This document shows, piece after piece, positions 1-17,942 of a stretch of DNA of 20,629 bases. Below the pieces are notes generated by a model. It did no database searches. It was not told the origin of the DNA and was given only the letters and a program-made list of their open reading frames with translations. Source of the DNA: Pseudomonadota bacterium. Lineage in GTDB: Bacteria > CALINM01. The stretch's first letter is position 1. Each line of letters starts with the position of its first letter. The position numbers were made by a program, and so were the translations under genes. The stretch is from the NCBI GenBank assembly GCA_026415985.1, contig JAOAGA010000020.1:1-20629 (forward strand). Reading direction: 5' to 3'.

Positions 1-103
1 TCAAAGCAGTAGTCTGCATAGATACAACTGCCAGAATACCAATGGTGAGTATTGACATAGCAATTAATACTTCAATAAGAGAAAATCCTTTATTGCCTTT
101 CAA
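1..103 (-). CDS. Type IV pilin-like / PilV-GspI-type minor pseudopilin, N-terminal fragment
   Basis: Only the first 34 codons are in the window; the C-terminus lies beyond position 1. The translation begins MKGNKGFSLIEVLIAM and continues with a hydrophobic stretch. This is a class III prepilin signal: a short basic leader, Gly before the cleavage site, then Phe, Glu at +5 and a membrane helix. The SLIEVLIAMSIL pattern is most like PilV/GspI minor pilins, but the fragment is too short to be sure of the subfamily. I chose a TTG start at 101-103 because GGGAGGG lies 6 nt upstream. An in-frame ATG at 116-118 would add five residues (MGGLK) and place the Shine-Dalgarno sequence inside the gene. 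The start overlaps the 3' end of the GspH-like gene, suggesting translational coupling. The product would be inserted in the inner membrane and processed by prepilin peptidase. Confidence 0.8.
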   Translation of the reverse strand, partial: MKGNKGFSLIEVLIAMSILTIGILAVVSMQTTAL

Positions 104-542
104 CTTTAACCCTCCCATAACCTGAAACTATTACTCTCCTTTGCTGTTGACCATACCTGAACACGATAGTGTTATTCGTTCCTAAAACTATTCCCGTCGG
201 CGGAATACAAACTATTAAATTATCTGATGTTATTTCCATTTCTTCATTGAGTTTAAGAGTTTGTTCTATTTTTTCGCCAGAGGTAAAGGTTTTACTTCTA
301 TCACTGTCAATGAACATGGAAATAGATGGATTTTTCCCTTTGGGAAAAGATAGGCATACTTGCTCATTATATTTAAGAGATACTGACTTGGCTAAATTTA
401 TAAAAGATACAACCTTTTGCATATCACCTTTTGTTATATAAATTTCTCTATATCTGACAAAATTCGGGATCGCAACAGCACTCAAAATAGTAATTATTGC
501 TATAACTATTAATAACTCCACTAAGGTTAATCCCTTTTCCAC
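90..542 (-). CDS. GspH/FimT-type pseudopilin
   Basis: A 150-residue prepilin-like protein. The N-terminus MEKGLTLVELLIVIAI has a four-residue leader ending in Gly, cleavage before Leu, the +5 Glu, and a ~20-residue hydrophobic helix. The body is short and beta-rich, with an SDRS/GEKIEQ segment and a C-terminal VFRYG...VIVSGYGRV strand pair. Both are typical of GspH/FimT/FimU minor pilins, which sit at the tip of type IV pili or type II secretion pseudopili. The start is GTG at 540-542. No clear Shine-Dalgarno sequence is seen upstream, but no other start would preserve the short leader. It is the first gene of a leftward operon and overlaps the next prepilin gene. Pilus versus type II secretion cannot be decided from this window. 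Confidence 0.87.
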   Translation of the reverse strand: MEKGLTLVELLIVIAIITILSAVAIPNFVRYREIYITKGDMQKVVSFINLAKSVSLKYNEQVCLSFPKGKNPSISMFIDSDRSKTFTSGEKIEQTLKLNEEMEITSDNLIVCIPPTGIVLGTNNTIVFRYGQQQRRVIVSGYGRVKVERQ

Positions 543-696: not shown

Positions 697-1059
697 ATGA
701 TTATGAAATATATCCGTTTTTTAATCTTGGCTTGGTTCTTTTTTATTTTTACCGCTCAAATTGGTGTGCCTAAGTATGAACACGATTTCGGTAAAGTAAA
801 AGCTGATCAGATTGCCACTTGCACCTTTGAGATTGAGAATAATGAGAATGAACCTTTAATAGTTGAGTATATTGAGGGAGGCTGAGGTGTTTATACAAGG
901 CTACTTTCGGGTAAAGTAGCCAAAAAAGGAGAAAAGATAATTTTAGAGGTTGAGTATAAGCCCTGCAGTAAAGAAAAGTTTGAAAAGTTAATACTTGTAA
1001 AGGTTAACAAATCGGCCGGTTACATAACTTTTACAATCAGGGGCGAAGCAACAGACTAA
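697..1059 (+). CDS. Predicted exported DUF1573-family selenoprotein (in-frame TGA read as Sec)
   Basis: Read through the TGA at 883-885, the frame stays open to TAA at 1057-1059 and gives 120 residues. The N-terminus (MIMKYIRFLILAWFFFIFTA) is a signal peptide or membrane anchor. The mature part matches DUF1573 throughout, on both sides of the TGA: HDFGKVK near residue 29, FEIENNENEPLIV, then GEKIILEVEYKP and a closing beta-strand segment. Typical members carry S-C-G-C-T after the PLxI strand; here the corresponding residues are G-Sec-G-V-Y, so Sec63 replaces the first conserved Cys. Cys42 and Cys90 are the only cysteines. A SECIS-like hairpin follows the TGA. Family function is poorly known; location would be periplasmic or membrane-anchored. 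The start is ATG 697 or ATG 703; neither has a good Shine-Dalgarno sequence. The alternative is a pseudogene with a nonsense mutation. Homology continuing past the TGA and the hairpin argue against that. Confidence 0.78.
899..921 (+). promoter_or_regulatory. Candidate bacterial SECIS hairpin
   Basis: GGCTACTTT (899-907) pairs perfectly with AAAGTAGCC (913-921), nine uninterrupted base pairs closing the loop CGGGT (908-912). The apical loop starts 22 nt after the TGA at 883-885. Known bacterial SECIS elements lie immediately 3' of the UGA inside the coding sequence, with the apical loop roughly 16-37 nt away and a G among the first loop bases; this fits on all counts. It would recruit SelB carrying Sec-tRNA. 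It is not a conventional terminator: no T-run follows the stem on either strand, and the stem lies in translated codons. Confidence 0.75.
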
Positions 1060-9120: not shown

Positions 9121-10506
9121 ATGAAACCGAACATATTGATAGTTGATGATGATAAGCTTTTTTTAGAACAGTGTGTTGACATGCTAATTGATGTAGAGGG
9201 GGATTTACATTTAGCAACTTCCTGCAAAGAAGCCAGTGATATTATTGAATCAAATAAAATTGATATTCTTATCCTTGATCTTGTATTGCCTGACGGGAAA
9301 GGCGACAGCGTAATGGAGATTGCAAAAAAGAAAAATCCGGATGTAGATGTGATAATAATTAGTGCCTTTGGAACGGTTGAATCGGTAATAAATCTAATGA
9401 GAAAGGGGATATTTGACTATATTAAAAAACCAATAGTACCTGAGGAGTTTAAATTTACTATTCTTAAATGTCTAAGAGAAAGGGCGATCATCGAAGAAAA
9501 CAGAAAGCTTAAGGAGTCTTTAAACATCTATGAGCTTGGGAAGATGCTTACCAGCAATTTAGAGCTACCAAAGGTTTATGATAATATTCTGGTTTTATTT
9601 GATAATATAATGAAAGGCTCTAAGGTGGTTGTGTTTTCTTCAGATGTATCAGATAACTATGATATAAGGGCTTTTTTAAACTTTGACAGAAGTGAACTTG
9701 CTAATATTAAAGAAAAACTTGTTGATTTTTTAAATGACAGGGTTTGTTATAAAACAGACGAAACAATTGATGGCAATATAAGCATTTTTAAGCTATCTAA
9801 CTTGGATTTTCCTGAAAAGTTTGACAAAAATTATTTGATAACATTCCCCATTATCTTTGACAACAGAGTCAAGGGAGGAGTTTTTGTCTTTGCCGATTAT
9901 ATTCAGGACTCTAAAAGGGAGTTCTTTACTTTTATAAGGGATCATATTAATTTAGCTATAGAAAATGCCATCAGATATATCAATGCTCAGGAGATGGCTT
10001 TTATAGATGAGTTGACTAAGGTTTACAATATCAGATATCTTCACGTGGCCCTCGAAAATGAGATAAAAAGAGCTGAGAGGTTTGGGAGCTTTTTATCCGT
10101 TTTATTTCTCGATTTAGACTTTTTTAAGAATATTAATGATACCTATGGTCATCTGACGGGCAGTAAATTATTGATAGAGATAGCAAAAGAGATTAAAAGA
10201 TGCGTAAGAAGCATTGATATAGTAATCAGATACGGTGGAGATGAGTTTGTTATAATATGCACAGAAACTGACCCCGAACTGGCATTGAAAGTTGCAGAGA
10301 GAATAAGAAAAAGAATTGAAACTACCGAGTTTCTGAAGGAAGAAGGAAAGAATATTAAAATAACTGCATCAATAGGTATAGCAACCTATCCTGTTAATGC
10401 AACTACAAAGACAGATTTACTTGAGCTCGCGGATAAGGCGATGTATAAAGGCAAAGAAACCACAAGAAACGTAGTATATCTCACAGACAAGGTATTAAAA
10501 AGATGA
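9121..10506 (+). CDS. Response regulator diguanylate cyclase (receiver-GAF-GGDEF)
   Basis: 461 residues. The receiver (1-120) has Asp9-Asp11 acidic residues, phospho-acceptor Asp53 in LILDLVLPDG, Ser81 and Lys103 in IKKP. A GAF-like middle domain (about 135-300) contains FPIIFDNRVKGGVFVFAD and DHINLAIENA. The GGDEF domain (about 305-461) has DELTKVYNIR, the intact active site RYGGDEF (372-376), and the inhibitory I-site RSID (363-366), five residues before it. It should therefore make c-di-GMP from GTP and be product-inhibited. A GGGGGG stretch precedes ATG 9121. Its TGA overlaps the hisS start (ATGA). The likely upstream kinase is the GAF-GAF histidine kinase at 5508. Confidence 0.94.
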   Translation: MKPNILIVDDDKLFLEQCVDMLIDVEGDLHLATSCKEASDIIESNKIDILILDLVLPDGKGDSVMEIAKKKNPDVDVIIISAFGTVESVINLMRKGIFDYIKKPIVPEEFKFTILKCLRERAIIEENRKLKESLNIYELGKMLTSNLELPKVYDNILVLFDNIMKGSKVVVFSSDVSDNYDIRAFLNFDRSELANIKEKLVDFLNDRVCYKTDETIDGNISIFKLSNLDFPEKFDKNYLITFPIIFDNRVKGGVFVFADYIQDSKREFFTFIRDHINLAIENAIRYINAQEMAFIDELTKVYNIRYLHVALENEIKRAERFGSFLSVLFLDLDFFKNINDTYGHLTGSKLLIEIAKEIKRCVRSIDIVIRYGGDEFVIICTETDPELALKVAERIRKRIETTEFLKEEGKNIKITASIGIATYPVNATTKTDLLELADKAMYKGKETTRNVVYLTDKVLKR

Positions 10507-11756: not shown

Positions 11757-13531
11757 GGAACTGGAAAAGAACCGATTATTGCGGGAACATTGATGAAAAC
11801 TGGATTGATAAAGAAGTTACCGTTATGGGATGGGTCTTCAGGAGAAGAGACCACGGTGGAGTTATATTTGTTGATTTACGAGACAGAGAGGGGCTTTTGC
11901 AAATTGTCTTTGACCCGACAATAAACGCTGATGTTCACCAGAAAGCAGAAAAGATTAGAACAGAATATGTCATTGCAGTAAGAGGTGTAATCAGAAACAG
12001 GCCCGCTGGAACTGAGAACCCCAATTTGAGAACAGGAAAGGTTGAGTTAGCTGTAAGTGAACTTAAGATACTAAGCGAGTCTCTGCCGATGCCTTTTAGT
12101 TTAGAAGAGGGAGAAATTGAAAAAGTAGGGGAGAATATCAGGCTTAAATATAGATATCTTGATTTAAGAAGTGAAAATCTTAAAAACAGTATAATTTTCA
12201 GACATAAAATCTCGTCTCTTATAAGAAATTATCTAAACAACAAAGGGTTTATTGATATAGAAACGCCATTTCTTACCAAAAGCACACCGGAAGGGGCAAG
12301 GGATTTTCTTGTACCAAGCAGATTAAATCCCGGCTGTTTCTTCGCGTTACCACAGTCTCCTCAGCTTTTTAAGCAGATTCTTATGATTGGAGGTTTAGAT
12401 AAATATTACCAGATAGTTAGGTGCTTCAGAGATGAGGACCTAAGGGCAGACAGACAACCTGAGTTTACTCAGGTAGATATTGAGATGTCTTTCATATCGG
12501 AAGAAGATATAATCTCGCTAATTGAAGGAATGATGGCTGAGCTTTTTTCCGGGGTTTTAGGATTAAAAATAGACCTTCCGTTAAAAAGGCTAACCTATAA
12601 ATATGCCATGGAAAATTATGGAACGGACGCACCGGATACAAGGTTTGATTTAACAATAAAAGATATTACCGGTTGCCTATCAAACTCACAGTTTAAGGTT
12701 TTTTCAGACACGATAAAAAGCGGTGGTGTCATTAAAGGTATAAACTTAAAAAAACTGCCTCTGTCAAGGAAAGAGTTAGACGAGCTGATAGAGTTTGCAA
12801 AGGATTTAGGTGCCAAAGGGCTATTATGGGTAAAGATACAGGATGACGGCTGGCAATCACCTGCTTCCAAGTTTATAACTGATGAGGAAAAAAGAGAGGT
12901 AGAAAAGATTTTTCAGACAGAAAACGGAGATATAATTATCTTTGTAGCAGATAAACCAAAGCTGGCTCTTTTTATCCTTGGTAAAATCAGGGTTATGCTT
13001 GGAAAAAAATACCGTTTATATGATGAAAAAACCTTTAATCTTGTCTGGGTAACTGATTTTCCGCTCTTTGAATACGATGAAGAGGAGAAAAGACTCGTTT
13101 CGGTACACCATCCCTTTACAATGCCGAAAGATGAAGATATTTATCTTCTCGAAAAGGATCCTCTGAACGTGAGAGCAAAGGCTTACGACATTGTATTAAA
13201 CGGTAATGAGATAGGAGGTGGTAGCTTAAGGATTTATCAGCCTGCCTTACAGAAAAAGATTTTTGAGCTAATCGGATTATCAGATGAAGATGCCGAAAAG
13301 AAGTTCGGGTTTTTTCTTGAAGCATTAAAGTTTGGTGCACCTCCTCATGGTGGTATTGCCCTGGGCCTAGACAGAATTATTATGTTAATGCTTGGAAAGG
13401 AATCTATCAGAGATGTAATAGCCTTTCCAAAAACACAGAAAGGCACCTGTCTGCTTACCGATGCCCCGTCACCGGTTGATGATTTACAGTTAAGAGAACT
13501 ATATATAAAAAGGATTTTACCTAAGCAATGA
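11744..13531 (+). CDS. aspS: Aspartyl-tRNA synthetase, bacterial type, probably non-discriminating
   Basis: 595 residues with the full bacterial architecture: N-terminal OB-fold anticodon domain (1-110), class II catalytic core split by a GAD insertion (about 290-420), and motif 3 at GIALGLDRIIMLM near the end. Catalytic-core landmarks include TKSTPEGARDFLVPSR, LPQSPQLFKQ and FRDEDLRADRQPEFTQ. His37 in RRRDHGG and Gly89 in RPAGTENPN correspond to the pair (His31/Gly83 in Pseudomonas aeruginosa) that marks non-discriminating AspRS. This enzyme would then also aspartylate tRNA-Asn, for later amidation by GatCAB. ATG 11744 lies inside hisS with AAAGGAGA upstream. Its TGA stop overlaps the next ATG (ATGA). 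Confidence 0.96.
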   Translation: MEFLGNWKRTDYCGNIDENWIDKEVTVMGWVFRRRDHGGVIFVDLRDREGLLQIVFDPTINADVHQKAEKIRTEYVIAVRGVIRNRPAGTENPNLRTGKVELAVSELKILSESLPMPFSLEEGEIEKVGENIRLKYRYLDLRSENLKNSIIFRHKISSLIRNYLNNKGFIDIETPFLTKSTPEGARDFLVPSRLNPGCFFALPQSPQLFKQILMIGGLDKYYQIVRCFRDEDLRADRQPEFTQVDIEMSFISEEDIISLIEGMMAELFSGVLGLKIDLPLKRLTYKYAMENYGTDAPDTRFDLTIKDITGCLSNSQFKVFSDTIKSGGVIKGINLKKLPLSRKELDELIEFAKDLGAKGLLWVKIQDDGWQSPASKFITDEEKREVEKIFQTENGDIIIFVADKPKLALFILGKIRVMLGKKYRLYDEKTFNLVWVTDFPLFEYDEEEKRLVSVHHPFTMPKDEDIYLLEKDPLNVRAKAYDIVLNGNEIGGGSLRIYQPALQKKIFELIGLSDEDAEKKFGFFLEALKFGAPPHGGIALGLDRIIMLMLGKESIRDVIAFPKTQKGTCLLTDAPSPVDDLQLRELYIKRILPKQ

Positions 13532-14297: not shown

Positions 14298-16118
14298 GTG
14301 ATTAACTGGAACAGCAAGAAGAATAGATTTGAGATAACCAAGGCAGGTCAGAGAAACCACTCTCATGTTATAAACCCTGACAAGCCAAATCTTTTAAGAG
14401 AGATGTTTCCTTATTCAGAGGTCTGTAAACAGGTCTATTGTGACGAAGTTATCTTGATGGATATACCAGAAGATATTTTTATAACTGATACAACATTCAG
14501 AGATGGTCAGCAGGCACGACCACCTTATACAGTCAAACAAATTGTTGATATCTTCAAAATGCTTCATAAACTTACGGGAGCAAGTGGCGTTATCAGACAG
14601 TCAGAGTTTTTCCTTTATAGTGAAAAAGATAAAGAAGCTGTCAGAGAATGTATCGATTTAGGATATAAATACCCGGAGATAACAGCATGGGTAAGGGCAA
14701 ACAAAGAAGATTTGAAGCTTGTGAAAGAGATGGGAATAAAAGAGACAGGAATCTTAACCTCTGTTTCCGATTACCATATCTACCTTAAATTAGGCTGGGA
14801 CAGAAAAAAAGCCCTTGATAGCTATATTGGAGTAATAAAAGATGCCCTTTCCATAGGTGTTAAACCAAGATGTCATTTTGAGGATATTACAAGGGCAGAT
14901 ATCTATGGATTTGTAGTTCCCTTTGTACTTTCAATAATGGAGCTGGTGGAGGAAAGCGGAATTGAGATAAAGGTCAGACTATGTGATACAATGGGATATG
15001 GTTTGCCCTTTCCACAGGCAGACATTCCGAGAGGCATTCCCAAGTTAATTTATGTTCTGAAAAAAGAGACAGGCATAACTTCTGAGCAGTTGGAATGGCA
15101 TGGGCACAATGATTTCCACAGAGGGCTTGTAAATGGATTATCTGCCTGGCTTTACGGTGTCAGCTCAATAAACGGAAGCCTACTTGGTTTTGGCGAGAGG
15201 ACCGGTAATCCGCCCATCGAGGCTTTAATAATTGATTATCTCAGTATTAAAGGAAACAACGGAGAGATTGACACAACCGTAATAACCGAGATTGCAGAGT
15301 ATTTTAAAAGAGAGCTCGCCTTTGAGATACCACCAAATTATCCTTTTGTAGGAGATGCCTTTAACGCCACCTCAGCGGGTATTCATGCAGACGGTGTTAT
15401 TAAAAATGAAGAGATTTATAATATATTTGATACACTAAAAATTTTAAACAGACCCATCAAGGTTACAATCACCGATAAGTCCGGTACAGCAGGTATAGCT
15501 TACTGGATTAACCAGAGACTTGGCCTTAAAGATGACCAAAAGATTGATAAAAGACATCCAAGTATAATAAAAATTTATTCCTGGATTGAAAAGCAATATA
15601 ACGAAGGCCGAACAACCTCTATTTCTGATGAAGAGATGGAAAAGCTTTGCAGAAAATATCTGCCAGAGTTATTTATGTCAGAGTTTGACAGGATTAAAGC
15701 AAAGGCTAAAGATATGGTTCTTCATCTTATTGAAGAACTCCTTCAAATACCTGATGTTGCATCTATGGTTCCTGAGAGGCAGGAAGAGGTTCTCAAAAAG
15801 TTAGTGGAAGAAAATCCATTTATCCAGTTTGCCTATATAACTAATGCAGAGGGCATTAAAATCACAAAAAACATTACTCAGATAGAAGACAAGCCCAAGT
15901 ATGAGAAGATTGGCTTCAATGAAGACTTTTCCGATAGAGAATGGTTTATAGAGCCAGTTAAAAACGGGAAGGTTTTTGTTACCGATCTTTACAGCTCAAA
16001 AATTACCGGTGCCTTATGTGTAACCGTATCGGCTCCTATCAGAAATGAAAAAGATGAGATAGTAGGCGTGATTGGTCTTGATATTAAGTTTGAACATCTG
16101 GCAAAGACCGAAGATTAA
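14298..16118 (+). CDS. HMGL-family condensing enzyme, probable Re-citrate synthase, with C-terminal Cache-like domain
   Basis: 606 residues, starting at GTG 14298 with GGAGG 7 nt upstream. Residues about 55-400 are a DRE-TIM metallolyase barrel of the isopropylmalate/homocitrate synthase family: FITDTTFRDGQQ (Asp64, Arg68, Asp69), metal-binding HGHND (His268, His270), and FGERTGNPP. The LeuA-type regulatory domain is absent. From about residue 500 the sequence resembles a Cache/PDC sensor module (FAYITNAEGIKITKN, FSDREWFIEPVKNG, SAPIRNEKDEIVGVIGLDI), normally found outside the membrane in receptors; here no membrane segment exists. The gene lies just upstream of icd. HMGL-type Re-citrate synthases are known in strict anaerobes (Clostridium kluyveri, Syntrophus), so oxaloacetate + acetyl-CoA to citrate is my preferred reaction. 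Homocitrate or another 2-hydroxyacid synthase remains possible. Confidence 0.8.
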   Translation: MINWNSKKNRFEITKAGQRNHSHVINPDKPNLLREMFPYSEVCKQVYCDEVILMDIPEDIFITDTTFRDGQQARPPYTVKQIVDIFKMLHKLTGASGVIRQSEFFLYSEKDKEAVRECIDLGYKYPEITAWVRANKEDLKLVKEMGIKETGILTSVSDYHIYLKLGWDRKKALDSYIGVIKDALSIGVKPRCHFEDITRADIYGFVVPFVLSIMELVEESGIEIKVRLCDTMGYGLPFPQADIPRGIPKLIYVLKKETGITSEQLEWHGHNDFHRGLVNGLSAWLYGVSSINGSLLGFGERTGNPPIEALIIDYLSIKGNNGEIDTTVITEIAEYFKRELAFEIPPNYPFVGDAFNATSAGIHADGVIKNEEIYNIFDTLKILNRPIKVTITDKSGTAGIAYWINQRLGLKDDQKIDKRHPSIIKIYSWIEKQYNEGRTTSISDEEMEKLCRKYLPELFMSEFDRIKAKAKDMVLHLIEELLQIPDVASMVPERQEEVLKKLVEENPFIQFAYITNAEGIKITKNITQIEDKPKYEKIGFNEDFSDREWFIEPVKNGKVFVTDLYSSKITGALCVTVSAPIRNEKDEIVGVIGLDIKFEHLAKTED

Positions 16119-17408: not shown

Positions 17409-17942
17409 ATGTATCTAAATTTACCAAACCTAATTACTCTTTTTAGAATATTTTTAATTCCTTTTTATATTTATGAGCTAATGATTGACAACTTTTGGTC
17501 AGCATTAGCTCTTTTTATTATTGGCTCATTATCTGACCTTTTAGATGGTTTACTGGCAAGAAGGTTAAATCAGGTTACCTCCTTAGGTAAGTTTCTCGAT
17601 CCTTTAGCAGATAAACTCTTCTTTCTTTTCTCTCTTTCAATAATGAGCTATAAAAACCTTGTTCCTCTCTGGTTTTTTGGAATTCTGCTTTTGAGAGATA
17701 TACTTGTATCAATTGGCTCGGTAATATATATTGACAAGGTAGGAATGAAAGAGATCAGACCGCACCTTACAGGAAAGTTGGTAAATTTTTGTATTTTTTT
17801 TATAACCCTTTTTGTATTAATAGATCATACTTATGCAGATATTAGCTTTTATCTTTTTTATACCCCCCTTTATTATGTCTCCACATCTCTTTCTGTTTAT
17901 TCCCTTTTTGTATACTGGCAAAGATTCAGGAGGCTCGGATAG
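17409..17942 (+). CDS. pgsA: CDP-diacylglycerol-glycerol-3-phosphate 3-phosphatidyltransferase
   Basis: 177 residues, hydrophobic, with several predicted membrane helices. The CDP-alcohol phosphatidyltransferase signature is complete: Asp43, Asp46-Gly47, Ala50-Arg51, Gly60, Asp64, Asp68 (spacing D-x2-DG-x2-AR-x8-G-x3-D-x3-D). LPNLITLFRI at the N-terminus is typical of PgsA, which makes phosphatidylglycerol phosphate at the inner membrane. The length matches family members (about 180 residues). It is the last gene of the rightward run. Its final 17 nt overlap, tail to tail, the end of the leftward activase gene, and no terminator hairpin is visible between them. Confidence 0.92.
   Translation: MYLNLPNLITLFRIFLIPFYIYELMIDNFWSALALFIIGSLSDLLDGLLARRLNQVTSLGKFLDPLADKLFFLFSLSIMSYKNLVPLWFFGILLLRDILVSIGSVIYIDKVGMKEIRPHLTGKLVNFCIFFITLFVLIDHTYADISFYLFYTPLYYVSTSLSVYSLFVYWQRFRRLG

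Follow-up and report, generated by a model that had tools for sequence, protein, structure and literature searches.

The window, by which we mean the whole 20,629-nucleotide stretch of DNA analysed here, carries near its start two divergent genes, namely a GspH/FimT-like minor pilin gene on the minus strand (90..542) and, on the plus strand, a short DUF1573 gene (P0001, 697..1059). DUF1573 is a large domain family, by name of unknown function. The frame of the gene runs from an ATG at 697 to a TAA at 1057-1059 and is interrupted by a single TGA at 883-885, such that translation with table 11 stops after 62 residues while reading the TGA as selenocysteine (Sec, U) yields 120 residues. Because a standard gene caller cuts the gene to 62 residues, a DUF1573 selenoprotein of this kind is easily missed. 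The Pfam profile PF07610 matched across the TGA (residues 26-117, profile positions 5-97 of 98, 7.1e-18), with a score of 64.9 bits vs. a gathering cut-off of 26.1 bits that places the protein in DUF1573, and in a six-frame search of the genome the match at this locus was marked '1 TGA'. These data agree with an earlier note on this DNA, which had claimed a frame open save for one TGA, a product of 62 vs. 120 residues and a single DUF1573 domain. The N-terminal segment of the protein (697..768, MIMKYIRFLILAWFFFIFTAQIGV) is hydrophobic and may serve as a signal peptide, recognized as such by inspection only, or as a membrane anchor; the predicted model has a helix at residues 3-21, and the orthologue in genome G001 also begins with a hydrophobic stretch. 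The genome has one other DUF1573-matching protein, a 644-residue frame with three such domains (G000:C55:23997-24947, minus strand; L002-L004), none of which has Cys or Sec at the motif. With the window protein as query, genome contigs yielded one distant Bacteroidia match only, and viral contigs searched for the DUF1573 protein gave no match.

Elsewhere in the window, a gene at 14298-16118 (plus strand) encodes an HMGL-like enzyme of the isopropylmalate/Re-citrate synthase type, to the C-terminus of which a PDC/Cache sensor domain (PF22673, residues 496-602) is fused. This fusion is unusual, since PDC domains mostly act as sensors outside the cytoplasm. The same fusion occurs in genome G002 (77%), and relatives of the enzyme in G011 and G026 (55-60% identical) match only to about residue 471, with frames of 465-484 residues.

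In an alignment of 36 DUF1573 domains, the TGA (883..885, plus strand) coincides with the leading Cys of the CGC motif typical of the family, a column occupied by Cys in 25 domains and by Sec in 8 (33/36 Cys or Sec), as the earlier note had proposed in placing it at a conserved Cys; we refer to the residue as Sec63. Among the genomes searched, only G001 and G002, both of one sister genus, belong to the same family as the window genome, and in both the TGA is found at the same codon (IESGUGVKTKILSG vs. IEGGUGVYTRLLSG in the window). Over the 57 codons past the TGA, G001 and G002 differ at 6 first, 4 second and 34 third positions, with protein identity of 48/57 after Sec and 21/27 before it; the third-position bias of these differences, together with an identity no lower past Sec than ahead of it, is a sign of selection on the protein on both sides of the TGA, strong and purifying downstream of it, and implies that the TGA is translated through. 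Neither random stops nor frame decay was seen in these relatives, the frame being intact after the TGA in all three genomes, and the in-frame stops among the DUF1573 matches listed for 145 and 386 genomes were all TGA, with no TAA and no TAG. The sequence of a single MAG is on its own not enough to exclude an assembly or sequencing error, with a codon that is really TGC or TGT, but given the same-codon TGA in three genomes that were assembled separately and represent two genera, we rejected this explanation as having a negligible probability. That the TGA is a true stop, leaving a 62-residue fragment or a decaying pseudogene, is how a standard gene caller treats the gene in ending it at 883-885; this seems to us very improbable, and we rejected it in view of the intact frame past the TGA, the conservation of the same TGA codon in three genomes, the purifying selection downstream, and the hairpin and Sec machinery described below.

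Downstream of the TGA, at 899..921 on the plus strand, lies a bacterial SECIS-like hairpin, GGCTACTTT-CGGGT-AAAGTAGCC, with an MFE of -12.0, the stem of which begins 13 nt and the loop 22 nt past the TGA; the 9-bp stem and 5-nt G-containing loop that the earlier note had read at this distance are thus present. Bacterial SECIS elements have been described with a small apical loop containing guanosine (PMC1088965), and the window hairpin has a G in a small apical loop just downstream of the TGA. The place of the hairpin is conserved, with different letters in the stems (ATTCTCTC/GAGAGGGT in G001 and CCTCTCC/GGAGAGG in G002). When synonymous codons were redrawn at local usage, an equally good SECIS-like hairpin at the right distance had p=0.0025 in the window, 0.0042 in G002 and 0.058 in G001, the last not being significant on its own; plain folding energy in redrawn synonymous codons gave p=0.030, 0.005 and 0.049, respectively. 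Since the three sequences are related, the three hairpin p values are not to be multiplied. A hairpin of equal quality was found at 3/750 TGA triplets of the window, with the DUF1573 TGA among the 3. Across 44 domains, the SECIS-specific hairpin score was higher in UGA-type (19) than in Cys-type (25) domains (Mann-Whitney p=5e-5, a value to be read with caution as the sequences are related), whereas plain MFE gave no convincing separation between UGA-type and Cys-type sequences (p=0.054). The score is not a sensitive SECIS finder, because no hairpin was found in 6/19 UGA-type sequences.

The source MAG (1.57 Mb in 161 contigs, 84% complete) harbors a tRNA-Sec with anticodon TCA (76.6 bits vs. 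a gathering score of 47), selB (373 bits), selD (324 bits; L065, 1501-2409 on contig C33) and selA (378 bits), the match of the latter covering positions 113-454 of 455, with the N-terminal quarter missing from the match. The selD gene has its own in-frame TGA near the N-terminus (ASASGUAAKMGPG), so that SelD is probably a selenoprotein itself in the window genome. With tRNA-Sec, selB, selD and most of selA in the MAG, the Sec trait is present, and the machinery that the earlier note had wanted sought in the genome has been located, selA in part. In other genomes, tRNA-Sec scored above the cut-off in 9/10 of those tested that bear such a TGA (the exception being G059) vs. 0/3 of those without it. 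A read-through TGA might also be explained by reassignment of TGA to an ordinary amino acid in the window lineage, but TGA terminates four other window genes (1613-1615, 10504-10506, 13529-13531 and 17926-17928), the same number of normal TGA stops as given in the earlier note, TGA does not serve as a sense codon in many other genes of the window, and the tRNA with the TCA anticodon is tRNA-Sec, with selB and selA also present; we consequently rejected reassignment as having a negligible probability. We are confident that Sec is incorporated at UGA 883-885, and hold it to be highly probable, if a shade less so, that the product is a redox-type DUF1573 protein containing Sec. In such a scheme, SelB and Sec-tRNA would bind the hairpin at 899-921, and UGA 883-885 would be decoded as Sec63.

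The earlier note had described a putative new selenoprotein. The selenoprotein part stands, based on the machinery, TGA conservation, selection and the hairpin, but DUF1573 as a new selenoprotein family has been ruled out, given that OS_HP2 (pfam07610, motif UxC) was a predicted selenoprotein family by 2008 at the latest (PMC2398784), that DUF1573 with the motif UGC is among the selenoproteins in PMC9312934 (2022) and PMC13188914 (2026), and that the NCBI model NF041425 is named 'OS_HP2 family (seleno)protein'. We found UGC forms in eleven further genomes (G003, G060, G079, G107, G126, G192, G221, G238, G257, G267 and G346). OS_HP2 appears to originate in an NAR 2007 study of an Olavius symbiont. 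Among other forms, L046 (G140) and L047 (G059) hold another DUF1573-like selenoprotein candidate with the motif GCUPP, in which Sec stands one residue after Cys; both loci have strong hairpins (scores 13 and 12), and G059, as mentioned, is without tRNA-Sec above the cut-off. L048 (G041) has a UACT motif, a UxC form, in a 695-residue protein with a DUF1573 domain. No report of DUF1573 activity tested experimentally was found in the literature. What is new here is the UGV variant with an extra Cys, DUF1573 as a selenoprotein family having already been predicted.

The second Cys of the CGC/UGC motif, present in 29/36 aligned domains, is replaced in the window protein by Val65 (889..891, plus strand), and Val at this position occurs only in the three orthologues of the window lineage, all of which (3/3) thus have UGV and not the UxC/UGC redox motif. 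The same three orthologues share an invariant Cys within a '(K/T)PC' motif (Cys90 in the window protein, codon 964..966, plus strand), and none of the other domains among the 36 aligned has Cys in that column. The G001 protein contains no Sec or Cys residues besides Sec57 and Cys85; the window protein also has Cys42, a candidate competing partner for Sec63 that is absent from G001 and G002. Judging from these alignments, the window lineage appears to have exchanged one redox partner for another, in a sample of three sequences from one lineage that is small and may reflect a single event. The earlier reading of the protein is strongly supported as to Sec and overlooked this unusual feature, i.e. 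loss of Cys in going from UGC to UGV and gain of Cys elsewhere.

A PDB sequence search with the window protein alone returned chance matches only, and PF22544 matched the protein at 37.7 bits. In an AlphaFold2 single-sequence model (best mean pLDDT 84, pTM 0.69, with five models spanning pLDDT 50 to 84), the top fold match was 2qsv of P. gingivalis (Z 12.1, rmsd 1.9 over 92 residues), followed by domains of VesB, HYDIN and CEP192. In the model, the third strand (54-60) is followed by a loop (residues 61-64) that carries Sec63, and the sixth strand (94-103) is preceded by one (residues 88-93) that carries Cys90. In the Ig-fold topology, these two loops (C-D and E-F) share one pole, and the two strands usually run side by side. 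The loops of Sec63 and Cys90 are accordingly placed, as a prediction, at the same end of a PapD/ASH-like sandwich. We surmise that the domain of this small, exported or membrane-anchored protein would fold outside the cytoplasm as a PapD/ASH-like Ig sandwich, and that Sec63 and Cys90, carried by the C-D and E-F loops respectively, may form a reversible selenenylsulfide in place of the CxC/UxC pair of ordinary DUF1573 members, a proposed pairing to which we would give just under an even chance. A competing view is that the protein contains Sec but the selenol acts alone, being reduced by an external thiol or removing peroxide, or binds a metal, with Cys90 being no partner; this is a serious contender to which we assign a substantial minority share of the probability, as the CxC partner has been lost in the window lineage and several listed selenoproteins with UxxT, UxxS and UxxV motifs do without a nearby resolving Cys (PMC2398784, PMC9312934). 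On the other hand, the PC cysteine occurs in exactly the three sequences in which the motif Cys has been lost and is the sole Cys in the G001 protein, a distribution that favors the Sec63-Cys90 pair. With this pair, the protein would most likely be a thiol-selenol oxidoreductase, and its possible clients would include disulfides of the type IV pilus machinery, e.g. those of the Cys-rich PilY1.

The idea of a pilus client comes from the gene neighbourhood. The window pilin (90..542) is 55% identical to the G001 pilin, and this orthologue heads a pilin-pilW-pilY1 cluster in G001 with the DUF1573 gene as its last member, the order on one strand being GspH/FimT-like pilin, second prepilin, pilW, pilX-like, pilY1, DUF1573 and dnaJ. 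The ATG of the G001 DUF1573 gene overlaps the pilY1 stop (ATGGTAA), the name PilY1 being based on the length, the cluster context and a Pfam score slightly below the cut-off (27.9 of 28.1 bits). In G002, dnaJ adjoins the DUF1573 gene, and the contig ends inside the latter. With the divergent pilin orthologue in the window and the cluster in G001, the gene adjoins type IV minor-pilin genes in either genus, notwithstanding a rearrangement. The G001 PilY1 contains 29 Cys residues, and the pilX-like and PilW proteins none; a search of the MAG of the window for PilY1 gave no match, and controls in the same search gave none either. From gene linkage alone, we hypothesize that the DUF1573 selenoprotein perhaps takes redox care of PilY1; a pilus-related client in general is a speculative proposal that we regard as rather unlikely. 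Less probable still is the most elaborate version of this reading, namely a lineage-specific redesign of the active site in which the motif Cys was lost, a new partner Cys arose on a neighbouring loop and the exported Sec-Cys protein became dedicated to type IV pilus biogenesis. The replacement of Cys by Sec strongly hints at a catalytic or redox-active CGC motif in DUF1573, and a one-domain variant with a seemingly moved partner Cys and a link to a pilus cluster provides a small and testable entry to DUF1573 function.

Compared with known systems, the predicted fold of the window protein is like that of the PapD-like (ASH) domains of HYDIN, CEP192 and VesB and of 2qsv, at an identity of 10-18%; the domains of HYDIN and CEP192 are parts of large eukaryotic proteins, and the shared fold shows no function. 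With the Cys-type DUF1573 proteins of PF07610, the window protein shares a match over nearly the whole profile, but theirs is a CGC motif and that of the window is Sec-Gly-Val. Its likeness to OS_HP2/NF041425 lies in the same domain, in Sec at the column of the first Cys of CGC and in a hairpin after the TGA, found in many members; unlike OS_HP2, with UxC/UGC, the window protein has UGV, with an additional Cys in its lineage 27 residues further on. Against NF041425, the three orthologues scored 32.1, 29.9 and 32.0 bits, far below the cut-off of 100, and UGC-type domains from two other genomes, given as single domains, scored 73 and 84 bits. By the NCBI definition, the window protein is therefore not OS_HP2 (32 of 100 bits; UGV, not UxC), but it probably works on a chemistry similar to that of OS_HP2.
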